Shown piece after piece: positions 8,403 to 35,169 of a stretch of DNA of 35,169 nt. Position numbers and translations under genes: made by a program. The stretch is taken from the NCBI GenBank assembly GCA_003576855.1, contig QEVI01000033.1, positions 1 through 35,169 on the forward strand, in the 5' to 3' direction. How positions within the stretch are numbered: the stretch's first letter is position 1; every line of letters begins with the position of its first letter. Under the pieces are notes generated by a model that saw only the letters and a program-made list of their open reading frames with translations, did no database searches and had not been told where the DNA came from. The DNA comes from Planctomycetota bacterium (lineage in GTDB: Bacteria; Planctomycetota; Planctomycetia; Pirellulales; Lacipirellulaceae).

Positions 8403-9683
8403 ATGCCCGCCACCGACGCTCCCTCCCGGTCCCCTGCCCCGCCGAAGCCTGGTCTGCGCGGCGATCTGGCCGCGCTGAAGATCGATCGCTCGCAGGGTCG
8501 CCGGCCGTCGTGGCCGGCACGCCTGGCGTGGATCGTGGCGGGGCTGGCGCTGCTGGCGGCGGCCGCGGGCGCCGGCTATTGGGCCGTGCAAGACCGGCTG
8601 TTCCCCCTGCCGGTGGTAAAAGCCGATTCCGTCCGCATCATGACCCTCGGCCAGGCACGCACCACGCTCACCGCGACCGGCTACCTGGAATCCCGCTGGC
8701 AAGCGGCCGTCGGCGCCAAGGTTCCCGGACGCATCGCGAATATCCCCGTCGAGGAGGGGGACGAGGTCAAGGCCGGCGACGTGCTGGCGGAACTGGAGCA
8801 CTCGGATCTCGACGCTATGCTTGCGTCGCGCAAGGTCGCCGTGGCCCGCGCTGAAGCCGAATTGGCTGAAGCCGAACTGAACCTCCAGCAGGCCAAGCGC
8901 GATTTAGCTCGTGAACAAGGGATCTTCCAACGCGGCGCCGGCACGCAGGCGACGCTGGACCGCGCGCAAACGACATACGACGCCGCCGCCGCCGTGCAGC
9001 AGGCGCAGGTCGCCGCGGTCGAAGCTGCCAAGGCGGCCGTCGTCGAGGCGGAGGAGTCGATTCGCAACATGTTCATCTATGCCCCGTTCGACGGCACGGT
9101 CGTCACCAAGGACGCCGAAAAAGGCGAATCCATCATGCCCGGCGGCATGGGGGCCAGTTCCGGCCGCGGCTCGGTCATCACGCTGGCGAAGCTCGACGAG
9201 CTGGAGGTCGATACGGACGTCAAGGAAGATTACCTCAGCCAGCTTCACGAAGGCCAGCCGGCCCAGGTGGCCGTCGATGCCGTGCCGGATCGGCGCTACA
9301 ATGGCCGGCTTCGCGAGATCATTCCGATGGGAGATCGCACGCGCGGGATCGTGAAGGTCAAGGTGTCGATCCTCGACGCCGACGATCGACTATTTCCTGA
9401 GCTGAGCGCGACGGTCCATTTCCTGCCCGATGAAGCCGAGGGCGCCGAGGCAGCCCAGCAGAAAGGCGTATTCGCCCCCCTTGCGGCCCTGCAGGGCGAA
9501 GGCGACGACCGATTCGTCTGGGTGCTCGAAACCAACCGTGTGCGCAAGGCCGCCGTCAAGCCTGCCGGCGAGGCCAACGATGGCCTCGTTCAAGTCACCG
9601 GAGATTTGGTCGGCGGCGAACAAGTCGTCGTCAACCCACCGCCCGAACTGCAGGAAGGCGCCGAAGTTCAACTCGCGGAGTAA
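8403..9683 (+). CDS. HlyD/MacA-type membrane fusion protein of an ABC exporter
   Basis: A 426-residue periplasmic adaptor. A cytoplasmic Pro-rich start is followed by one membrane anchor at about residues 40-62 (A-W-I-V-A-G-L-A-L-L-A-A-A-A-G). The biotinyl-lipoyl-like half (V-G-A-K-V-P-G-R-I-A-N-I-P-V-E-E-G-D-E-V) and its partner I-Y-A-P-F-D-G-T-V-V flank an Ala/Glu-rich coiled-coil hairpin at about 130-215. A beta-barrel region (D-T-D-V-K-E-D-Y-L) and a membrane-proximal domain follow. Such proteins link an inner-membrane transporter to the outer envelope. With the ATPase and two permeases downstream this makes a MacAB-like or Lol-like export module. The gap of 157 bases before the ATPase has its own promoter candidate. 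The cargo is unknown. Confidence 0.9.
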   Translation: MPATDAPSRSPAPPKPGLRGDLAALKIDRSQGRRPSWPARLAWIVAGLALLAAAAGAGYWAVQDRLFPLPVVKADSVRIMTLGQARTTLTATGYLESRWQAAVGAKVPGRIANIPVEEGDEVKAGDVLAELEHSDLDAMLASRKVAVARAEAELAEAELNLQQAKRDLAREQGIFQRGAGTQATLDRAQTTYDAAAAVQQAQVAAVEAAKAAVVEAEESIRNMFIYAPFDGTVVTKDAEKGESIMPGGMGASSGRGSVITLAKLDELEVDTDVKEDYLSQLHEGQPAQVAVDAVPDRRYNGRLREIIPMGDRTRGIVKVKVSILDADDRLFPELSATVHFLPDEAEGAEAAQQKGVFAPLAALQGEGDDRFVWVLETNRVRKAAVKPAGEANDGLVQVTGDLVGGEQVVVNPPPELQEGAEVQLAE

Positions 9684-9696
9684 CGCAAAACAAAAC

Positions 9697-9725
9697 CGCT
9701 GATGAACGCTGACTGACGCCGATGG
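9697..9725 (+). repeat. Short degenerate ten-base repeat
   Basis: Three units with a period of about ten bases, CGCTGATGAA, CGCTGACTGA and CGCCGATGG, follow the stop codon of the HlyD-like gene. They look like a decayed copy of a simple interspersed tandem repeat. Confidence 0.4.
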
Positions 9726-9787
9726 CGAATAACGAGAGCTCACCATCAACGGTCCTGCGATGTTAAGCTCCGGAAGGCCGCATTTGG

Positions 9788-9816
9788 TTCATATTAGCGG
9801 TATCAGCAGTTATAAG
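9788..9816 (+). promoter_or_regulatory. Sigma70-like promoter ahead of the ABC ATPase
   Basis: TTCATA (9788-9793) and TATAAG (9811-9816, five of six to consensus) are separated by exactly 17 bases. The predicted start point is about 18 bases before the ATG at 9841. TGGTTC at 9785 and GAACCA at 9825 form an inverted repeat around the promoter, a possible operator. Confidence 0.5.
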
Positions 9817-9840
9817 TGGTTTAAGAACCAGGATTAGCGA

Positions 9841-10557
9841 ATGAGCGAACACGCCGACGCCGTCGTCGCCTTGCTGAACGTCAGCAAGGAGTTCATGCGG
9901 GACAAGATCCGCATTCCCGTCCTCAGCAACACGACGCTCCACATCCCGCGGGGCGATTTCGTGGCCGTCATGGGGCCGAGCGGCTCCGGCAAATCGACGC
10001 TGCTCAACCTGTGCGCTGGGCTCGACAGGCCGACCACCGGCGAGGTGATCGTCAATGGTCAAAACCTGGGCGACCTGTCCGAAGCCGGCCTCTCGCGGTG
10101 GCGGAGCGAGAATCTGGGCTTCATCTTCCAGTCGTATAACCTAATGCCCGTGTTAACGGCGCAGGAGAACGTCGAGCTGCCGCTGTTGCTCACGCCGCTG
10201 CGGCGGGCCGAACGGCGCAAGCACGCGGCGGCGGCGCTGGCCATCGTCGGACTGGAGGATCGGGCCGACCACTATCCGCGGCAGCTTTCCGGCGGCCAGG
10301 AGCAGCGGGTGGCCATCGCCCGGGCGCTGGCGAACGACCCGGTGTTGCTGCTGGCCGACGAGCCGACCGGCAACCTGGACGCCGCCAGCGCCCAGGACGT
10401 GCTCGATCTGCTCGTGCAGCTCAACGACCACTACGGCACGACGATCATCATGGTGACGCACGATCCCAAGGCGGCGCGGCGGGCGAAGCGGCTGCTCCAC
10501 TTGGAAAAGGGCGATTTTGTGCAGGCCGACATCGACGCCCTGGAGGCCGCGCGATGA
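9841..10557 (+). CDS. ABC transporter ATPase, LolD/MacB type
   Basis: A 238-residue ATP-binding subunit that powers the FtsX-type permeases next to it. Visible motifs are Walker A G-P-S-G-S-G-K-S at 45-52, Q-loop Q97, signature L-S-G-G-Q at 149-153, Walker B L-L-L-A-D-E at 169-174 and the switch His207 in M-V-T-H-D. Residues [12 protein letters not shown] are typical of the LolD/MacB/FtsE group. The signature continues Q-E-Q-R in place of the usual Q-Q-Q-R, a mild change. The stop codon overlaps the start of the first permease (ATGA at 10554-10557), which implies translational coupling. An AGGA lies about eight bases upstream of the ATG. Family assignment is firm; the transported substrate is not. 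Confidence 0.95.
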
Positions 10558-11717
10558 TCAAGTTCCTGCCGCTGGTCGTGCGTAACGTGGCGCGCAACAA
10601 AATCCGCTCGTTGTTCACGTGCCTGTCGATCGCCGTGAGTCTGTTTCTCGTCGTGATGCTGTACTCGTTTCTCACCGTGCAAGACGAAATGACGGTCGCT
10701 TCGCGGGTGTACAACCGGCTGATCGTCATGAACGTCCAAGGCCTCGCCGGCAACGTGCCGATCGCCTACGTCGATCGCATCCGCAAGCTCGACGGCGTGC
10801 GCAGCGCGACGTCCTTTTCCTGGTTCGGCGGCAAGTACCGCGATGAGAAGATCGTCTTCGGCCAGTTCGGCGTCGATCCGCAGAGCGTGGCGGACGTCTA
10901 CGAGGACTACGTCGTTCCGCCCGACCAACTTCAGGCGTTCCAAGCCGACCGCACGGGTTGCGTCGTCGGCGCCCTGCTGGCGAAGAACAAAGGATGGTCG
11001 ATCGGCGATAAGGTGCCGCTGAAGGGCGACATTTACCCCGTCAATCTCGAGCTGACGGTCCGCGGCATTTACGACGGAAGCTCGTCGATCGACCGCGAAA
11101 TGCTCTGGTTTCATTTCGACTATCTCGACGAGTCGCTCAAGGCCGCCCGCAGCACGATGGCCGGCAACGCCGGCATCGTCGTCCTGCGGGCCAAGAGCGC
11201 CGAAGCGATGAATCGGCTCACCGAGGACATCGAGCTGGCGTTCGCCAGCTCCGACGCGCCGGTGAAGGCGCTGACCGAGAAGCAGTTCCAGGCCGAGTTC
11301 ATGAGCTACATGGGCGACGTTCGGGCGTTTATTCGCTACACGTCCATCGCCATCGTGATCGCCCTGCTGTGCGTCGCCGCCAACACCATGGCCATGGCGC
11401 TGCGCGAGCGGACGCGGGAAATTGCGCTCTTCAAGGCCATTGGCTTCTCGCAGGCCAACGTGTTGTCGCTGTTCCTGGGAGAAGCCGTTGTCATCGGCGC
11501 CTTGGGCGGCGTCGTGGGGTGCCTGGGGGCCAAGCTGCTCTTCGCGACAGTTGACTTCAGCAAGATGCTTCCCGGCCTCGGATGGCTGTACGTGCCCTGG
11601 AGCACGGCCCTGGCCGGCGTTGCGCTCGCGGCGAGCATCGGCCTGGTGAGCGGCGTCGTCCCCGCGTGGCGGGCTGCCCATCTCAGCGTGCTGGAAGGCC
11701 TGCGGAAGGTGGTTTAG
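10554..11717 (+). CDS. FtsX/MacB-type ABC permease (first)
   Basis: A 387-residue membrane subunit. The first membrane helix is at about 20-42 ([14 protein letters not shown]). A large periplasmic domain follows to about 255, and then three C-terminal helices carrying [15 protein letters not shown] and the coupling helix [15 protein letters not shown]. This is the four-helix MacB/LolC-E topology. It starts inside the ATPase stop codon. It ends [18 protein letters not shown] as usual for the family. The stop at 11715-11717 is followed immediately by the heptanucleotide repeat block. Confidence 0.93.
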
Positions 11718-11857
<140 letters not shown>

Positions 11858-11874
11858 GCAGGTCCGCGAGCCGT

Positions 11875-11916
11875 CAATCACCAATCGCCAATTATGGATC
11901 ACCGATCACCGATCAT
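11875..11916 (+). repeat. Second, degenerate heptanucleotide repeat of six units
   Basis: Six consecutive seven-base units, CAATCAC, CAATCGC, CAATTAT, GGATCAC, CGATCAC and CGATCAT, lie 17 bases after the first block and nine bases before the second permease. Their shared core is RATCAC. The sequence is unrelated to CAGTAGG but has the same period. Confidence 0.7.
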
Positions 11917-11925
11917 TCTCCCCCC

Positions 11926-13086
11926 ATGGTCCCTTTGAAATACAACCTCCGTAGTTTACGGGCGCGTAAGGTCGGCTCGCTGATGACCGTCCTGGGCGTG
12001 GGGATGGTCGTTTGGGCCAGCATCTTCGCCTTTGGACTCTACGCGGGGCTGGAGCACACGCTGACCGTAAGCGTCAATCCGCTGGATGTGATTGTGCTTC
12101 GCCAGGGTTCGACGGCCGAAACGGCCAGCGCCGTCAGCGAGTCTGCCGCTCGCGACATCCTCGCGCTGCCTGGGATCGCCACCGACGCCGAGGGCCGCCC
12201 GCTCGCGGCGCCTGAGCTGGTCGCCATTGGGTACCTGCCGCGGCGCGACGCGGACGGCAACACCAACGTGACCGTCCGCGGCGTCGTGCCGGCCTCGGCC
12301 GCGCTGCGCGACGGCCTCACCATCGTCGAGGGCCGAAACTTCACGCCGGGCGTACGAGAGGCGATCGTCAGCCGGGCCCTCTCCGAGCGGTTCAAGGGGC
12401 TGAAGCTGGGCGAAAGCTTCAAAGTGCAGGACGCGATGTTCCAAGTCGTCGGATACTTCCAAGCCCATGGGGCGGCCGCTGAATCGGAAATCTGGACCGA
12501 TCAACGGGTGTTGGGGCAAGTTACCAACCGCACCGGATCCGTCTCCGCCGTGCAGCTGCGAGCCGCCAGCGCCGACGACCGGCAGCGGCTCATCCAGCGC
12601 ATCACAGCCGACGAACAGATCGGCCTTAAGGCGATCACGGAGAAGGAGTATTTCGCCGAGCAGGCCGAGCAGAGCCAATTCTTGCGAATCATCGGGCAGA
12701 TCATCGCGTTCTTCTTAACTATCGGCGCGATGTTCGCGGTCGCCAACACGATGTACGGCGCCGTCGCTTCCCGCGCGCGCGAGATCGGCACGTTGCGGGC
12801 CTTGGGCTTTGGGCGGGCCAGCGTGCTGGCGTCGTTCTTATTCGAATCGCTGGTGCTATGCTTACTGGGAGCGATTGTCGGTTGCCTCGGTGCGCTGGCC
12901 CTGGGCGACATTCGGACCGGCACGATGGGCGGCGCCTTTACCGAAGTCGTGTTTGCCTTTAACTTCGGCCCCCGCGTGCTCCTTTCCGGCGCGCTGTTGG
13001 CCATCGCCATGGGCCTGTTGGGCGGCCTGGCGCCGGCCGTTCGCGCGGTGCGAATGCGGGTCGTCAACGCGCTGCGCGAAGTCTAG
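11926..13086 (+). CDS. FtsX/MacB-type ABC permease (second)
   Basis: A 386-residue paralogue of the preceding permease. It starts M-V-P-L-K-Y-N-L-R-S-L-R-A-R-K, then a membrane helix at about 17-38. A periplasmic domain with V-R-G-V-V-P-A and F-K-V-Q-D-A-M-F-Q-V-V-G-Y-F follows. Three C-terminal helices carry I-G-A-M-F-A-V-A-N-T-M-Y and the coupling helix R-A-R-E-I-G-T-L-R-A-L-G-F-G. The ending R-V-V-N-A-L-R-E-V is typical. No Shine-Dalgarno is visible; the bases before ATG are a C-run after the repeats, so translation may depend on coupling or another start. With the first permease it would form a heterodimer, as in LolC/LolE. Both would use the single ATPase at 9841. Confidence 0.92.
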   Translation: MVPLKYNLRSLRARKVGSLMTVLGVGMVVWASIFAFGLYAGLEHTLTVSVNPLDVIVLRQGSTAETASAVSESAARDILALPGIATDAEGRPLAAPELVAIGYLPRRDADGNTNVTVRGVVPASAALRDGLTIVEGRNFTPGVREAIVSRALSERFKGLKLGESFKVQDAMFQVVGYFQAHGAAAESEIWTDQRVLGQVTNRTGSVSAVQLRAASADDRQRLIQRITADEQIGLKAITEKEYFAEQAEQSQFLRIIGQIIAFFLTIGAMFAVANTMYGAVASRAREIGTLRALGFGRASVLASFLFESLVLCLLGAIVGCLGALALGDIRTGTMGGAFTEVVFAFNFGPRVLLSGALLAIAMGLLGGLAPAVRAVRMRVVNALREV

Positions 13087-20773: not shown

Positions 20774-23164
20774 TCAATTGCGAGTTATGGTTTCGTTGAG
20801 GTTGAGCAGCACGCGAGTAACCGACGTCCACGCCGCGAGCTCCGCCGCGTCGATCGCCGTATCGCGTGACGAGACGCCGACGCCGACGAGCGATCCGGCG
20901 GCTTCGCGCTGGTCGCGGTAATGCCGCCGATGCTGTTCCAGCAGTCCCGCAAGCAGCGAGATCTCTTCGCTAGCGGCGCGCCTGCCGGTGGCAATTCGCC
21001 AGGCCCACTGCAGCCGATCGTCGTCGCTGGCGCCGCCGCTGTTGAGCGTTCGTTCCGCCAGGGCCCGGGCGGCTTCGACGAATGACGGATCGTTAAGCAG
21101 CACCAGCGCTGCGCTGGGAGTGTTGGAAACCGGACGCTGGGCCGTGCATTCCTCGCGCGTCGGGGCGTCGAACGCCACGAGCCATGGATGAAGAAATTGC
21201 CGTTGCCAATGGACGTACGCTGACCGGCGAAACTGGTTGGAATCTGTCGAGGGCTCGTACTCGCGTTCCGGGAAATTGAGCGGCGCATAGTAGCCGGCCG
21301 GCTGATACGGTCGCGAGACGCCGCCGCCGGTTTGCATGACCAGCAGTCCGCTCACGGCGAGCGCGTTGTCGCGAATCTGTTCGGCGTCGAGCCGGAATCG
21401 CGATTGCCGGCCGACAAGCCGGTTTTCCGGATCCACGGCATCCAGTTCAGGCCGCGGGCGCGACGATTGCCGATAGGCGTGCGACGTGACCATCAGCCGG
21501 ATGACGTGCTTGACGTCCCAGCCGCTCTCCATGAACTCCACGGCCAGCCAATCGAGCAGTTCCTGGTTCACGGGCCATTCGCCCTGCGAACCGAGGTCGA
21601 TCACGGTCTTCGACAGGCCGACGCCGAACAGCCGCTGCCAGAGGCGGTTGACCGTCACGCGGGCGGTCAGCGGGTTGTCGCGGGCGACGATCCACCGAGC
21701 CAGGTCCAGGCGGTTGGCCCGCCGGCCCTCGATATCCAATTGCTTGAAGCAGTGCGGGACATGCGGCTCGACCACCGGCCCCGACTCGTCCATCCAGTTG
21801 CCGCGCGGCAGCACGCGGACCGTGCGGGGTTCGATCGCTTGGGTGATCATGGTCGGCTCGAATCTGGATTCGAGCTGGGCCCGCGCCGCCTTCATTTCCG
21901 ACAGTTCATGGAGCCGCTCTTGCCACTTCGCGTCGATTACGCCGACGAGCGATTGTTCCAACTCGGCGATCCGCCGATCGCACTTCTCGATCTCTCGATA
22001 CACGGGCAGCGTCCACGCCAGCATTTCGGGCGGCCGCTCCGACGGGGTCGTGTTCTTGGCGACTTTCTCGAACGAACCGTAGTGATCAACGTCGGCGAAA
22101 AACGCGCCGAGGCCGTAGAAATCGTCTTGCGTGTAGGGATCGAACTTGTGGTCGTGGCACTCCGCGCAGCCCATCGAGGCTCCCAGCCAGGTTTCGGAGA
22201 CGTTCCGCACTCGGTCGGCGAGATGCTTCGCTCGGTATTCCGCGTCCTGGGCGCCTCCCTCGTGCGTCGTCTGCAGCAGGCGGTTGTAACCGCTGGCCAC
22301 CCGCTGCCACATCATAGGATTGGGCAACAGGTCGCCGGCCAATTGCTCGATCGTGAACTGGTCGAACGGGAGGTTGTCGTTGAACGACTTGATGACGTAG
22401 TCCCGATACGGCGTGATGCGATGCTCCTGATCGCCGTGGTAGCCCACCGTGTTTGCAAAGCGGACGAGGTCGAACCACCAAGAAGCCATCCGCTCGCCGT
22501 AAGCCTCGGAGGCGAGCAGTCGATCGACGAGCCGCACGTAGGCCTCGGGCGACTGGTCGTTCAAGTACTCGTCAACCTGTTCCGGCGTCGGCGGCAGGCC
22601 GGTCAGATCGAAGTACAGGCGGCGAACGAGCGTCGGGCCGTCGGCTGCGGCCGCCGGCGCCCATCCGAGCGACTCCAGCCGCGCGGCCAGGAAGCGATCG
22701 ATTTCGTTATGTACGATGGCCCCGATACTCGCTGCGGGCGCGACCGGGCGTTGCGGCGGAATGTACGACCAGTGCGGCTCGTAGTCGGCGCCGGCGGCGA
22801 TCCACTGCCGCAGCACATCGATTTGCTCCGGAGTGAGCGCCGGTTTATTCGCTTCGGCGGGCGGCATTCGCACGTCGGGATCGTTGCTTGCCACCCGCGC
22901 GATCAGCTCGCTGCGGTCAGGGTTGCCCGGCACGATGACCGACGCCAGCGCCGCTGCCTCTTGGTCCAAGCGCAAGTCAGCCTCGCGGGCGCCGGAATCC
23001 GGGCCATGGCACGCAAAGCACCGATCCGCAAGGATGGGACGAATGTCCCGGTTGTAGCTGGGCGGCGCCGCGCGGCCGGCCGGACAGGCTGCCAGCAAAC
23101 TGCATGCAGCCCAGCTCATCGCCGCGCGCCAGCCGGCGTTGCGTCGAACCTTCGTAGGTTTCAT
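20774..23164 (-). CDS. DUF1549/DUF1553 (PSD1) protein with cytochrome c-like domain
   Basis: About 796 residues. The start at 23164 (M-K-P-T-K-V-R-R) gives a signal peptide ending G-R-A-A-P-P; the frame is open for 45 more codons upstream without features. A planctomycete cytochrome C domain comes first (Y-N-R-D-I-R-P-I-L-A-D-R-C-F-A-C-H-G, haem motif CxxCH, with V-R-M-P-P as distal ligand region). DUF1549 follows (L-Y-F-D-L-T-G-L-P-P-T-P-E-Q-V and a second haem-like C-A-E-C-H-D-H-K-F-D-P). DUF1553 is last (A-R-W-I-V-A-R-D-N-P-L-T-A-R-V-T-V-N-R, then Q-S-R-F-R-L-D-A-E-Q-I-R-D). It is probably a periplasmic or surface redox partner of the DUF1501 protein in an operon. The two CxxCH motifs suggest covalent haem. 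The exact reaction is unknown. Confidence 0.93.
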   Translation of the reverse strand: MKPTKVRRNAGWRAAMSWAACSLLAACPAGRAAPPSYNRDIRPILADRCFACHGPDSGAREADLRLDQEAAALASVIVPGNPDRSELIARVASNDPDVRMPPAEANKPALTPEQIDVLRQWIAAGADYEPHWSYIPPQRPVAPAASIGAIVHNEIDRFLAARLESLGWAPAAAADGPTLVRRLYFDLTGLPPTPEQVDEYLNDQSPEAYVRLVDRLLASEAYGERMASWWFDLVRFANTVGYHGDQEHRITPYRDYVIKSFNDNLPFDQFTIEQLAGDLLPNPMMWQRVASGYNRLLQTTHEGGAQDAEYRAKHLADRVRNVSETWLGASMGCAECHDHKFDPYTQDDFYGLGAFFADVDHYGSFEKVAKNTTPSERPPEMLAWTLPVYREIEKCDRRIAELEQSLVGVIDAKWQERLHELSEMKAARAQLESRFEPTMITQAIEPRTVRVLPRGNWMDESGPVVEPHVPHCFKQLDIEGRRANRLDLARWIVARDNPLTARVTVNRLWQRLFGVGLSKTVIDLGSQGEWPVNQELLDWLAVEFMESGWDVKHVIRLMVTSHAYRQSSRPRPELDAVDPENRLVGRQSRFRLDAEQIRDNALAVSGLLVMQTGGGVSRPYQPAGYYAPLNFPEREYEPSTDSNQFRRSAYVHWQRQFLHPWLVAFDAPTREECTAQRPVSNTPSAALVLLNDPSFVEAARALAERTLNSGGASDDDRLQWAWRIATGRRAASEEISLLAGLLEQHRRHYRDQREAAGSLVGVGVSSRDTAIDAAELAAWTSVTRVLLNLNETITRN

Positions 23165-23341
23165 AAGAGTCGGCGTGAACGGCGAGAGAAGCTTCAGGCC
23201 CGAGGCCGATGCACCGAGGCGCGGCGTCCGCCGCATTCCGGAGGCGTCGAGGCGCGTGGCTGACGCCCCCAGTTTATCGTAATCGAGCGCCCAATTCACC
23301 CGCTCTATCGGCCGATTTCCGACGCCTCAGCGACGGCCAAT

Positions 23342-30075: not shown

Positions 30076-31569
30076 TCACTCCACCTGGTCGGCGGATTGT
30101 TCGGGCAAGAAGTAGGAGAGTATCAGGTTAGCCAGGTAGAGCGCCGCCGCCACGGCCGCGGCCACTTTAGCGGTCGCTACGGCGGCTTCAGCCGGCGTGG
30201 GCGCATCGCCGAGCATCGTCGCGGCCAGGACCTGCGTCACGTAGGCGAACGGCGTTCCGAACATCCGTCCGCCGATGTTGGCCGCGAAGCTCTCGCCCGT
30301 CCCGCGGAGGTGCACCGGATACGCCTTCGGCAAATAATTGCCCCAGAAACTGAACTGCGCGACCGTAAAGAATCCGGCGACGAAAATGCCCAAGCCCAAC
30401 AGCGAAACGCTCACGTGATGAAAGCCGGGCAGCCAGCTCATATCGAAGCTGACAAACACGTGCTCCGCGCCCCGCGCGAAGCCCAAAAACACCAGCGGCA
30501 AGAAAATCAATCCAGGAACCAGGAACATCCGCAGCAGCGCCCGGCGACTGGCGACGTGGGCCACGAGCAGCGCCAACGCGAATCGCCCAAACAGCCCGCC
30601 CGTCTCTTGCGCTTTGGTGTAGTTGGCGACCTTTTCCTGGATGACGCGCCCCGGGGCCGTCTTCTTTTGCTCGGCCGGCGCCCGTTCGACCGCCGCTTGC
30701 ACTTGCTGGCGCACCAGGTTGATGCCCGGCACGATCTGCGGCATCTGCTGGATGGCGCCGAAGGCCACGCCGTAGCTGCACGCGAACATCACCGTCGTGA
30801 TAATCGTCGTGCGGCGGAACTCCGGCGAGAACAACGCGGCGACGCTCGGCCGGCGCAGCGTGCCGGCCGCCTTCTTCGCCGCCCATTTCGGCGATTCCGG
30901 CAGAAACGGGCGAATCACGATCAGCGGGATCGCCGGAACCAGCCCGCTCATCAGCGTGTAACGCCAGGCGGCGTGTTGATGCGCGGCGTCAATCGAACCA
31001 AAGACCGGCTCCAAGAATGCGGGCATGGAGATCGCCGGCAAGTCCAGCGCGTGCCGCACGATCAGCCCGTTTACCACGGCCACGAGCAGCCCGCCGATCG
31101 AAGAAAACGCCTGCGTGTAACCGAGCACCTTTTCGCGTCGCACAGGATCGTCGAACAACTCCGCCAGCCATGCCACCGCAGCCACGAATTCCACGCAAAC
31201 GCCGATGAACGTCGTCGTCCGCAGCAACAGCAGCATGTAGAGGTTCGTCGAGAACCCGGCGAAAAACGCGCTGAAGGCGTACAGCAAAATGCTCCAGGTC
31301 AGCACGCGGCGGCGGCCGAACCGATCCGTCAGGTATCCGCCCAATAGCCCGAAGACGCCGCCGCACGCCGCCGGCACGTAGAACAGCAGCCCGAACCAGC
31401 GGGCGAATTCCGGCGTGCCGCGGGTGTAGCCGGCCAGCTCCTGCAAGGCCGGCGCCACCACCAAGGGGAGCATCAGCAGCTCGTAGATGTCAAACGCAAA
31501 CCCAATCGCCGCAATGACGCATACGGTCCAGAGCGAGAACGTCATCCGCTGCGTAGGTTGGCCGGCCAT
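30076..31569 (-). CDS. MFS transporter (second)
   Basis: A 497-residue carrier. I use the ATG at 31569; the frame opens one codon earlier with TTG. Helix 1 carries F-A-F-D-I-Y-E-L-L-M-L-P. The A-motif G-G-Y-L-T-D-R-F-G-R-R-R-V lies between helices 2 and 3, and R-P-F-L-P-E-S-P-K-W after helix 6 resembles sugar/acid symporters. As in its neighbour, a charged segment is inserted after helix 7 (about 280-325, Q-A-A-V-E-R-A-P-A-E-Q-K-K-T). The motif P-V-H-L-R-G-T-G-E-S-F-A-A-N-I-G-G-R parallels P-T-H-L-R-S-T-G-T-S-F-C-Y-N-V-G-R in the first carrier, so the two are related. It lies 90 bases downstream of the RND gene. Confidence 0.9.
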   Translation of the reverse strand: MAGQPTQRMTFSLWTVCVIAAIGFAFDIYELLMLPLVVAPALQELAGYTRGTPEFARWFGLLFYVPAACGGVFGLLGGYLTDRFGRRRVLTWSILLYAFSAFFAGFSTNLYMLLLLRTTTFIGVCVEFVAAVAWLAELFDDPVRREKVLGYTQAFSSIGGLLVAVVNGLIVRHALDLPAISMPAFLEPVFGSIDAAHQHAAWRYTLMSGLVPAIPLIVIRPFLPESPKWAAKKAAGTLRRPSVAALFSPEFRRTTIITTVMFACSYGVAFGAIQQMPQIVPGINLVRQQVQAAVERAPAEQKKTAPGRVIQEKVANYTKAQETGGLFGRFALALLVAHVASRRALLRMFLVPGLIFLPLVFLGFARGAEHVFVSFDMSWLPGFHHVSVSLLGLGIFVAGFFTVAQFSFWGNYLPKAYPVHLRGTGESFAANIGGRMFGTPFAYVTQVLAATMLGDAPTPAEAAVATAKVAAAVAAALYLANLILSYFLPEQSADQVE

Positions 31570-31659
31570 CAAGCGCTTCGCGGCTGGAGTGGGGCGAATA
31601 GAACGGAGAGCAAGCGCGGGTGCACCGGGCGCCTCCTGGCCAGCGACCTCCGGGCGTGC

Positions 31660-34533
31660 TTAGGCCTCCACGCTCGCCCCATGTTCCCTCAGCATCCGCC
31701 GACGGTCAAGCGGCGAAAGCAGCGAATCCTCGCGCGTCCGCACGCGAACCACCGCGCGCCGCTCCTTCTTCGACTTCAGCGAGAACACCGCGCCGATCGG
31801 GCCGAACATCAGCGACGGCAGCATCACCAGCTCCGCGATTATGCCGGCTACGAGGATCGTGAGCATCAGCCAGCCGAATCGCTGCGTCGGCGTGAAGGAA
31901 CTGGTCGCGAACACCGACAGGCCCAGCCCGTTGATCAGTCCGGCCTGGAGCGTCGCCGACGCGCTGCGGCGATAGGAGCACAACACCGCCTCGTGCCGAT
32001 CGCCCAGCGCCTTCAGGTCGTCCTTGTACCACGCCAGGAAGTGGATCGTATCGTCCACGGCCACGCCCAGCGCGATGCTCGCGGCCATCATCGAGCCGAT
32101 ATCCACGGGAATGCCTAGCCAGCCCATGCCGCCGAACACCACCAGCACTGGCAGCGTGTTGGGTATCATGACCACCACGCCGGACCAGACGCCGCGGGTC
32201 ACCCACATCATCAGCGGCATGATCGTGGCGAACGACCACCACGTGCTTTGCACCAGGCTTTCCAACAGCGCGTGCTGCGCTTTGTACACGACCGGCACGA
32301 CGCCGGTGTACGTGACGTCGACCCCCGAGATGTCGTCGAGGATGCTCTTGGCGTCGCGGGCTGCTTGCCGCGCGGTTTCTTGCGTCGCGAGCACGGCCAC
32401 GCCGGCCCGGCGCAGTTGTTCGTAATCCTCGTAGCGAAAGCCTTCGGCCATCACGACGCCGTCGAAGGGCGCGAGGCTCGCCTTCAGTTGCTCGTCGGAA
32501 AGCGCGCCGACATCCGCCTTGCCGGCCTGAGCGCGGACGTTCTTGGAAGTCAGCAGCGCGACGGCGTCCTCGGTGTTCACGTCCTTGTCGGCAGGCCGAA
32601 GCACGACGACGCGGGCTCCGTTCGGCCGGCCATGTCGGCGTTGGGCCAGCGCCTCCAGGGCGTCGGCGCTCATCTCGCGAGCCTCCAGCGCCGGCTGCAC
32701 CGCGTTGCGGATCCGCTGCACAAGCTCGCCATGGTCCATGCCGTGGAAAGCCGCCAGCCGCACGCTGATCCGCCACAGTTCCTCGCCGGCGCGGTCGCCG
32801 GCCTCGGGGCCTTCGACGCGAAAGTACCCCGAGCGGGCGAACTGGTCGCGGCTCTCGAGCAACTGCTCGTTGGCCCGCTCGCGGTACGTCGAAGCGTTCA
32901 GCCCGCTTTCTTCGCCGCCGAGATCGGGCGCGAACGTCGCGGCACTCATCGTGGCGCCGACCAAATCAAGCCCCTCCGGGCCTAACTGGCGATCGATGTT
33001 TTTTTGTATCCGTTCAACCAGCCTGAGCCGTTCAAAGAACGTGTGCCGGGTCACTAGCTCGCCCGGCGGCGTTCCGGGCGGGGCCTGCTCGCGCTGCACC
33101 TCCGGAGCGAACCGCACGACCAGTTCCATCGGCACGATCTTACCCAACCGGTCCTCGAACCACTCGTAGTCTTTCAGCAGTTGCGCGTCTTCGCTGAACA
33201 GCTTCAGCAGATCGATCGACGTCGTGGTCTTCGGCAGGCCGAAGCACAGCGCCACGATCACCAGCATGCAGCCGGCCAGCACGGCGGCGTGATGCCGGCG
33301 GATCATGCCGCCGAACGCGTTCCAGCCGCGAGCCCCGATCGTCAGCCCGTCCTGGCGGTGCTTCTTACTGCCGTGGTCCGTCTTGGCCAGCAGCTCCGGC
33401 GGCGTCCACGGCCAGCGCTTCAAGGCGGCCGGCAGCACCAAGAACAGCACCGCCAGCATCGTCATGGTCCCCAGCGCCGAGAAGCCGCCGAACTTCGCAA
33501 TGGGAATGATGTCGCTGGTCAGCAGCGACGCCAGGCCGATGGCGGTCGTGACGGACGTCAGAATCGCCGGACGCCAGGCGTGCACCACCGCGTGCTCGAT
33601 GGCGTGGTCCAGATTGCCTTCGTCGGCCGCCGCTTGGCGGTAGTAATTGATCAAGTGGACGGCGCCCGACACGGCCAGGACGTAAATCAGCGCCGGCATC
33701 GACATGAGGATGGCGTCCATGCGGCTGCCCAACAGCGGCACCGCCGCCAGCGCCACCGCCGCGCTGAGAATCCCGCAAGTGAACACAATCGCCGTCATGC
33801 GGACGCTGCGCAGCGAGAGGTACGCAAGGCTGATGCCCAAGAGTCCCGACAATCCCGCCAGTCGAATCAGCGTCCGCTCGCCTTCCTCGTCGATGGCTAC
33901 GTTGTCGATCGGCGGCCCGCCCAGACGAACCTGCGAATCGCTCAGACCCGCTGCCCGTATCGCCTGAAACAGCGGAGTCACCGGGCTGGTCCGAATGAGT
34001 TTCTTAATCGGTCGCCCAACAGACTGGCGCAGGTTCGCAGCGCCCGCTTCGGTGAGCGTGGCCATCAGCGCCGTTTGCTTGCCATCCGGCCCGATGAGCG
34101 AACCGGCGAGTCGCTTCGCCGCTTGCCGCGGCGACAGGCTGGTCGGCGGCGCCATGAGTTGCTGCATCACGTCGCGCGCCGTGGTGACTTGCTTGAAGAC
34201 CGACGCGCCAGGATGCTCCGAGTTCGCCGGCAGCTTCGCCTGCAATAGCTCCTCGGTCAGCTTGGCGATGCGGGGGTCGTCCTGGCTGCCGTCGGCCGCA
34301 TCGCCCAGCGTGCAGCCGTCCCAACTGATGAGCACGAACTGGTCAGCCACGAAATGCTTGCGGAACCAGCGCAGTTCGACTGTTTCGGGGTAGCTCTTCG
34401 GCAGCCAGTCGGATACGTCGTTGCGATTGCCTCGGATGGCCTTGATGGCGCCCCAGCACGCCAGCGGCGTGATAATCGCTGCGACCAGAAGGATGTGCGT
34501 GGCGTGTCGAGCAAGGAACGACTGTTTGTTCAT
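31660..34533 (-). CDS. RND/MMPL-family exporter
   Basis: A 957-residue membrane protein from the ATG at 34533; a TTG one codon upstream opens the frame. Helix 1 at about 12-32 is followed by a large periplasmic loop. A helix cluster at about 220-385 carries sterol-sensing-like features (I-L-M-S-M-P-A-L-I-Y-V-L-A-V-S-G-A-V-H). A second periplasmic domain and a second cluster at about 770-905 follow. The latter holds I-A-L-G-V-A-V-D-D-T-I-H-F-L-A-W-Y, the charged proton-relay motif of RND/MMPL proteins. The family exports lipids, hopanoids or other hydrophobic compounds. No fusion protein or outer-membrane channel gene is adjacent, as is usual for MMPL members. The cytoplasmic tail is Arg-rich. 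It is first in a minus-strand run ending with NDH-2. Confidence 0.92.
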   Translation of the reverse strand: MNKQSFLARHATHILLVAAIITPLACWGAIKAIRGNRNDVSDWLPKSYPETVELRWFRKHFVADQFVLISWDGCTLGDAADGSQDDPRIAKLTEELLQAKLPANSEHPGASVFKQVTTARDVMQQLMAPPTSLSPRQAAKRLAGSLIGPDGKQTALMATLTEAGAANLRQSVGRPIKKLIRTSPVTPLFQAIRAAGLSDSQVRLGGPPIDNVAIDEEGERTLIRLAGLSGLLGISLAYLSLRSVRMTAIVFTCGILSAAVALAAVPLLGSRMDAILMSMPALIYVLAVSGAVHLINYYRQAAADEGNLDHAIEHAVVHAWRPAILTSVTTAIGLASLLTSDIIPIAKFGGFSALGTMTMLAVLFLVLPAALKRWPWTPPELLAKTDHGSKKHRQDGLTIGARGWNAFGGMIRRHHAAVLAGCMLVIVALCFGLPKTTTSIDLLKLFSEDAQLLKDYEWFEDRLGKIVPMELVVRFAPEVQREQAPPGTPPGELVTRHTFFERLRLVERIQKNIDRQLGPEGLDLVGATMSAATFAPDLGGEESGLNASTYRERANEQLLESRDQFARSGYFRVEGPEAGDRAGEELWRISVRLAAFHGMDHGELVQRIRNAVQPALEAREMSADALEALAQRRHGRPNGARVVVLRPADKDVNTEDAVALLTSKNVRAQAGKADVGALSDEQLKASLAPFDGVVMAEGFRYEDYEQLRRAGVAVLATQETARQAARDAKSILDDISGVDVTYTGVVPVVYKAQHALLESLVQSTWWSFATIMPLMMWVTRGVWSGVVVMIPNTLPVLVVFGGMGWLGIPVDIGSMMAASIALGVAVDDTIHFLAWYKDDLKALGDRHEAVLCSYRRSASATLQAGLINGLGLSVFATSSFTPTQRFGWLMLTILVAGIIAELVMLPSLMFGPIGAVFSLKSKKERRAVVRVRTREDSLLSPLDRRRMLREHGASVEA

Positions 34534-34907
34534 CAATTACGGAATCTCGCGGTGCGCTGCGGCGGTTCGCCGCGCTACGTGACCCAAGCGGCAACGCGGC
34601 CGCGTGTTTCGCCAGCCAGAAGGCAGGCCGGCGCAAACGATTATTCTCGCCCGGTTGCAGACGTGGCTCAAGACGAACATCCCGCAATGCGCCCGTGCAT
34701 AGCCCCCGAAACGGCTCTTTGCTCCCCCAATCTGAGGCCTGCGGGCAATCCTTCGAGTTCCCCAGCCTGGCAGGCTGGGTGGTTCAAATCGACCTTGACG
34801 GCTTTCGCCGCTTGCCCGTACTCTCCCGCCAACCGTGCTGCACTTACTTTGCGTAGGCGATCGCCTGGCGTGCGTGCGGGAACTTTTTGTGAGGGGAGAT
34901 TCCTCCG
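34534..34907. other. Intergenic region between the RND gene and the basic peptide gene
   Basis: A 374-base divergent spacer. It contains a 19-base palindrome (34761-34779), a perfect 12-base palindrome AGGCGATCGCCT at 34855-34866 and, just before the small gene, a G-rich ribosome site. No convincing -35/-10 pair was seen on either strand. No coding region here is supported. Confidence 0.45.
34761..34779. repeat. Perfect inverted repeat CCCAGCCTG-g-CAGGCTGGG
   Basis: Nine bases on each side of a single G form a perfect palindrome. It could fold as a short hairpin or act as a repeat-family element or protein-binding site. It lies in the spacer about 130 bases upstream of the 27-aa gene. Confidence 0.5.
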
Positions 34908-34991
34908 ATGGCACAGCCCAAGAACACCGGAAAGAGCACCAAGCAACAACCCGCCGGCAAGGGCCAGCCCGCGCCGAAGAAGGGCAAGTAA
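34908..34991 (+). CDS. 27-residue very basic peptide gene
   Basis: A short frame, ATG at 34908 to TAA at 34989-34991. It encodes 27 residues with seven Lys and no acidic residue (M-A-Q-P-K-N-T-G-K-S-T-K, later P-A-P-K-K-G-K). The rest is mostly Gln, Pro, Gly and Ala, so the peptide should be disordered. Support for it being real is a strong GAGGGGAG ribosome site ten to seventeen bases upstream and an isolated perfect terminator 54 bases after the stop. Codon third positions are GC-biased. The family is not recognised. The composition resembles disordered, nucleic-acid-binding or ribosome-associated tails; that is only an inference from charge. It could be too short for standard annotation. 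Confidence 0.6.
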   Translation: MAQPKNTGKSTKQQPAGKGQPAPKKGK

Positions 34992-35045
34992 GCCAGCGCC
35001 GCGGCCCTCAAATCGGGCCGTGTGCCTACTACGACGCATGTCAGC

Positions 35046-35082
35046 AGGCGCCGCGGAGCCGTCCGCGGCGCCTAGTTTTTTT
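35046..35082 (+). terminator. Strong rho-independent terminator after the 27-aa gene
   Basis: AGGCGCCGCGGA (35046-35057) pairs perfectly with TCCGCGGCGCCT (35062-35073), a 12-bp stem with a GCCG loop. AG and then seven T residues (35076-35082) follow. It is one of the two best terminators in the window. No gene lies beyond it to the window end. Confidence 0.93.
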
Positions 35083-35169
35083 AAATCCAGCCCGGTTGCG
35101 TCCTGCCGGCGCTTCCGCGGCCGTAAACCCCAGCGGAACTCGCCCCGCCCCCCGCCCTCGCCCAGCCAG

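Follow-up and report, generated by a model that had tools for sequence, protein, structure and literature searches.

The sequence analysed here, the window, is an entire contig (C99, 35,169 bp, ending at position 35169) of a 417-contig draft genome from the genus Lacipirellula. Near its end lies a reading frame of 27 codons that starts with ATG at 34908 and closes with a TAA ending at 34991; its product, MAQPKNTGKSTKQQPAGKGQPAPKKGK, contains seven lysines and no aspartate or glutamate. An earlier note on this DNA had picked out this Lys-rich, acid-free frame together with a G-rich ribosome site and a perfect 12-bp terminator, and had read them as an independent small-protein gene. Each of these elements is borne out, and so is the reading, as conservation extends to the frame, the Lys content, the leader and the terminator. 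The coordinates are collected in Table 1.

Table 1. Elements of the small-protein gene near the end of the window.
Feature	Position	Strand	Support
Promoter-like site: -35 TTGACG (34795-34800), 18-nt spacer, -10 TACTCT (34819-34824)	34795-34824	+	Aligned elements in relatives
Structured leader: P1 enclosing hairpin P2, unpaired bulge on the 5' side	34831-34882	+	Match to covariance model R2; covariation
Hairpin containing the Shine-Dalgarno (SD) sequence GGGGAG (34893-34898)	34891-34905	+	Stem of at least 5 bp can form in 14 of 14 members
Reading frame, 27 codons + TAA, MAQPKNTGKSTKQQPAGKGQPAPKKGK, Lys-rich polycationic protein	34908-34991	+	Six of six genus genomes; pN/pS 0.15
Intrinsic terminator: 12-bp GC-rich stem, 4-nt loop, T7 tract	35046-35082	+	Fold z -5.4; compensating changes in relatives

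The promoter-like site is a candidate sigma70-like promoter, overlooked in the earlier note, that may drive the gene. A generic sigma70 scan did not report it because its -10 element is weakly matched; CTTGAC/CTTGNY and TAnnnT elements are aligned at this place in relatives. Transcription is predicted to start near 34831, where an mRNA of about 250 nt would begin, and the whole leader would span 34831-34907, up to the start codon. The terminator consists of the perfect stem and its loop (35046-35073), followed by AG and TTTTTTT. It folds at -28.8 kcal/mol, none of 200 shuffled sequences is equally stable, and its stem carries compensating changes in relatives, for example GGGGCCGTGAAC/GTTCACGGCCCC in G003. 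Promoter, leader, ribosome-binding site, frame and terminator align as a single unit among relatives. Transcription of this unit, like the direction of control and the polyanion binding discussed below, we infer from sequence features.

A gene for an MMPL-family exporter (31660-34536, minus strand) is divergent from the peptide gene, and 30076-31572 (minus strand) encodes another membrane protein that looks MFS-like on inspection. All six Lacipirellula genomes keep both genes on the upstream side of the peptide gene, and the downstream side is species-dependent. The genes flanking the unit are conserved inside the genus and different between genera, which indicates that the unit is autonomous; linkage to the MMPL exporter was rejected as functional evidence, since the neighbours change in other genera. 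Elsewhere the window encodes a tripartite export cluster with an HlyD-type membrane fusion protein and two MacB/FtsX-type permeases (8403-13086, plus strand), and an 841-aa PSCyt1-PSCyt2-PSD1 protein of planctomycete type (20774-23299, minus strand).

Conservation of the reading frame

The frame is present in all six available Lacipirellula genomes at 85-100% identity. Synonymous bias, which the earlier note had proposed as a check, is evident within the genus: the pooled pN/pS is 0.15 over 15 pairs (individual pairs 0.00-0.30), and length varies by whole codons only. A frame lost while the terminator and flanks were kept is contradicted by its presence in all six Lacipirellula genomes and in five more genera. 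The composition of the product is also rare in its surroundings. The window and neighbouring loci contain 580 ATG-initiated reading frames of 25-44 aa, of which 12 lack acidic and aromatic residues and have at least 20% Lys; ten of these are this gene, one is its longer in-frame start and one is unrelated. The 27-codon frame is, on these sequence grounds, almost certainly a protein-coding gene. An apparent second copy in G001 was rejected. The contig ends C241 (8735-8818) and C180 (8642-8765) share about 127 nt, made up of 43 nt of leader and 84 nt of the frame, and therefore represent one gene split by the assembly.

Structure of the leader and the Shine-Dalgarno hairpin

The leader is predicted to fold into an outer stem, P1, with the consensus CCG(U)GCAGs paired with sCUGCCGG, and an enclosed hairpin, P2, often closed over UGAU. 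The 5' side alone carries a bulge, about 12 nt long. An initial P1 pairing, TCCCG/CGGGA, was dropped because TCCCG is upstream of the predicted transcription start, and was replaced by CCG(U)GCAGC/GCUGCCGG. In an alignment of 13 leaders, 82.3% of cells are paired and 23 cells are double-changed. The covariation score is 0.295 against 0.123 +/- 0.022 in shuffles, none of 500 reaching it, although these counts overstate the significance because the leaders were aligned to fit the structure and are related to one another. RNAalifold, given an unfitted alignment, recovered P1 and not P2, and the window copy taken alone folds no better than its shuffles (z about -1.1 to -1.2). Outside Lacipirellula the bulge between P1 and P2 (columns 27-38 of alignment A9) keeps an ACUA(C/A)-like stretch, for example GACUAAAC, CUACUAC and GACUACU; a conserved unpaired stretch of this kind may be contacted by a ligand or a protein.

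The earlier note had also suggested that the ribosome site (GGGGA, 34893-34897) can pair with TCCTC (34901-34905) just before the ATG. This pairing is possible, and it generalises, as an SD-containing hairpin can be drawn in every member. In the window, two further registers are available: GAGGG (34891-34895) with the same TCCTC, which leaves the SD sequence partly in the loop, and GGAG (34895-34898) with CTCC (34903-34906). A stem of at least 5 bp can form immediately before the ATG in 14 of 14 members, with the SD sequence in the loop or in an arm. Together these stems amount to 80 bp compared with 44 +/- 8 in shuffles that hold the SD sequence fixed (0 of 300), a count in which the members of one genus are not mutually independent. 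The stems differ in sequence between members (GAGGG/TCCTC, CTCTTC/GAGGAG, TTGTCT/AGACGA, TGATC/GATCA, TGTCGT/GCGACA and GGTAGTG/TACTACC).

A covarying domain upstream of an SD hairpin is also the arrangement of translational riboswitches, thermometers and ribosomal-protein leaders. The present leader differs from this class in that the SD sequence is often in a loop rather than fully paired. No match to the Rfam 15 riboswitch and leader families was found in the window at the gathering score, and none to Rfam up to E 10 for the leader in the scanned loci of relatives. MicroRNA-like Rfam matches were rejected as GC hairpins or coding composition.

Distribution of leader and frame

A 630-bp DNA query gave short matches in G011 and G023, both of a second genus, where the loci encode MAQQQNKKGAKPQAAPTGKKGAAQPKKGK and MGQQQNAGKGAKPQATPAVKKGQAQPKKGK, respectively, and have a leader and terminator resembling those of the window. 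A two-ended DNA pattern was confined to two genera among 396 genomes of the order, with no matches for the reversed control. A third genus, represented by G015 with the product MAAKPTKPAASTKTPAAPTKGKPQAKKGK, was reached with a query derived from G023. A protein-only HMM built from the Lacipirellula peptides was discarded as a finder of relatives, as it reaches the genus only, and other peptide matches (E>0.2; loci L053 and L055 of G006) were set aside as chance low-complexity similarity. A degenerate DNA pattern found no match in viral contigs.

Further members were found through the RNA. Covariance model R1 was built from eight sequences covering the -10 element and the leader, and covariance model R2 from twelve, both excluding any information on the peptide. 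R1 recovered the known loci except G005 and added G010, G022, G025 and G006 (E 6e-9 to 5e-5); R2 added G019 to this set and matches the window at 34819-34883 (E 7e-11). The covariance search shows one leader per genome in the other genera of the Lacipirellulaceae. Directly behind each of the five new leaders lies a Lys-rich reading frame, of 39, 109, 37, 35 and 32 aa in G010, G022, G025, G006 and G019, respectively. These five matches, all made blind to the peptide and all preceding a Lys-rich frame, are the strongest support for leader and peptide being a single unit. In G005 the peptide is clear, yet its leader was undetected by the covariance model; this leader can form GCUGG/CCAGC around GGCAAGC-GGUU-GCUUGUC.

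At E<=0.001 the leader occurs in 13 of the 396 order genomes, all from one family. In a phylum-wide draw of 392 genomes the window alone matched, and a deeper leader search of 18 genomes of the family gave no additional convincing leader. Because searches on this scale evaluate just a dozen or so candidates in each genome, absence outside the family is provisional. Covarying structure stands upstream of one kind of gene, with all 13 leaders preceding a Lys-rich frame, and the leader is likely cis-regulatory.

Composition and possible function of the protein

The family conserved across the six genera comprises 14 members of 27-39 aa, apart from one of 109 aa. Their 508 residues include 138 Lys, 126 Ala, 66 Pro, 42 Gly, 40 Gln and 2 Arg, and no Asp, Glu, His, Cys, Phe, Trp or Tyr; the C-terminal end is mostly KKGK. 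Over the 14 members the proteins are Lys/Ala/Pro-rich with nearly no acidic or aromatic residues, the composition of a histone H1 tail, and Lys is encoded by AAG 131 times and by AAA seven times. The window peptide is rich in Gln, Gly and Asn besides Lys and Pro. Tandem KPAA-type repeats are present in the G022 protein and partly in that of G010, and are lacking in the 27-aa window protein. The G022 member (C1:5852108-5852434, minus strand, locus L088) is built of KPAAK-type repeats and contains 32 Lys, 41 Ala and no acidic residue. Within one genus, and behind the same leader, the protein measures 109 aa in G022 and 39 aa in G010, which points to repeat expansion or contraction.

The libraries searched contain neither peptide nor leader: no family in Pfam, NCBIfam, PHROGs or Rfam scored above its cut-off, and six members gave no match in Pfam or NCBIfam up to E 1. 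The G022 protein has no relative among solved structures and, as a query, revealed no second H1-like protein in these genomes at 1e-6. A search of open-licence papers found no description of peptide or leader. Given the H1-tail composition and no profile or structure match, we propose an H1-tail-like mode of working with moderate confidence, and not membership of a known family.

The closest likeness is to the KPAA-repeat C-terminal domains of AlgP and PhaF in Pseudomonas, which are likewise Lys/Ala/Pro-rich, predicted to be disordered and free of acidic residues, and which share the KPAAK-type units of the 109-aa G022 protein. In AlgP a helical N-terminal domain of 124 aa precedes a tail of 195 aa; peptides of this H1-like KPAA tail bind DNA, and AlgP organises polyphosphate granules (PMC9239181). 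The window protein, in contrast, has 27 aa, no N-terminal domain and no KPAA repeat; the likeness seen is in composition rather than in sequence. Chlamydial Hc1 and Hc2 belong to the PVC superphylum too and are likewise small, basic and rich in Lys; Hc2 ranges from 165 to 237 aa through its Lys-rich repeats (PMC2848022). The Lacipirellulaceae proteins differ in that the six members scanned lack a Pfam or NCBIfam profile match.

The reading we favour, again with moderate confidence, is a stand-alone gene for a tiny disordered Lys-rich cationic protein of the histone H1-tail type, its translation controlled by the leader. The 5' leader would fold into the covarying P1/P2 stem and then into the SD-bearing hairpin next to the ATG. 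As the hairpin holds the SD sequence just before the start codon, translation is probably tuned through it, either by melting of the hairpin or by the binding of some factor, possibly the peptide itself, and cis control of translation through this hairpin is the likeliest role of the leader. The 27-aa product, with seven Lys and no acid, would bind polyanions such as DNA, RNA or polyphosphate by charge, and on that basis H1-tail-like polyanion binding is somewhat favoured. The window peptide would then be the pared-down counterpart of the 109-aa KPAA-repeat protein that follows this leader in a related genus. The two appear to be homologous by their shared leader, start and composition, and not by protein alignment; the conserved RNA thus makes homology traceable where the protein gives no signal.

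It is possible, though unlikely, that the product instead works on the ribosome or some other RNA-protein complex, as a small, basic, ribosome-associated peptide similar to bTHX. Its size and charge suit such proteins, and structured leaders controlling the ribosome-binding site are common in ribosomal protein genes. However, bTHX-type peptides contain much Arg, whereas the family has 138 Lys and 2 Arg; no ribosomal family was matched in Pfam or NCBIfam; and a length of 27-109 aa with a sequence that drifts while composition stays is unusual for a protein with a defined binding site.

Less likely again, the transcript of about 250 nt would itself be the chief product and regulate in trans, the frame being secondary or one half of a dual function. 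The unit is compact, with a structured 5' part, a strong terminator and a single copy per genome, and the short Xanthomonas transcript sX6 (Rfam RF02225), which likewise has a small frame and a strong terminator, was initially taken for an sRNA. Yet sX6 was later found to encode a protein (PMC5559785), so RF02225 may itself describe a small-protein mRNA. Here the frame is under protein-level selection, composition being kept while its nucleotides differ, and in every case the ribosome-binding site follows immediately on the covarying domain. Structured 5' leader and frame go together one for one, which makes cis control simpler than a dual-function RNA. Membership of sX6 was rejected: the window has no match at the gathering score, and the best score, 34.9 bits in G010 (L087:1605-1799; gathering score 40), falls over the frame and terminator rather than the leader and was put down to a GC hairpin or coding composition.

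A secreted or membrane-active cationic peptide, such as an antimicrobial or the toxin of a toxin-antitoxin pair, would be equally small and highly positive, but is very improbable: the proteins have practically no hydrophobic residues (0-3 per member), no signal peptide, no transmembrane stretch and no partner gene, and the peptide gene is conserved in all members of the genus. A chance frame in GC-rich DNA adjoining a conserved terminator can be practically dismissed: the frame is very short and its product low-complexity and unmatched in profile libraries, but pN/pS is 0.15, six genera and 14 members share the frame and its composition constraint, and the leader model recovers the gene independently.

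Small Lys-rich proteins and structured leaders are each known kinds; what is new is their fixed pairing in a unit of 27 aa, and a homologous leader before a 109-aa repeat protein. Proteins below 30 aa, low-complexity ones especially, are mostly missed by annotation. A condensed nucleoid has often been described in Planctomycetes, and this mini-polycation gene, with a probable regulatory RNA of its own, is a candidate for nucleoid or polyphosphate organisation. As a tentative extension, the leader may be a new class of cis-regulatory RNA (P1/P2 plus an SD-presenting hairpin) for a new miniature H1-tail-like family whose protein binds its own leader and shuts off translation; such a self-regulated polycation would set nucleoid or polyphosphate condensation in the Lacipirellulaceae. 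Two hosts, Lacipirellula limnantheis I41 and L. parvula, are in cultivation.
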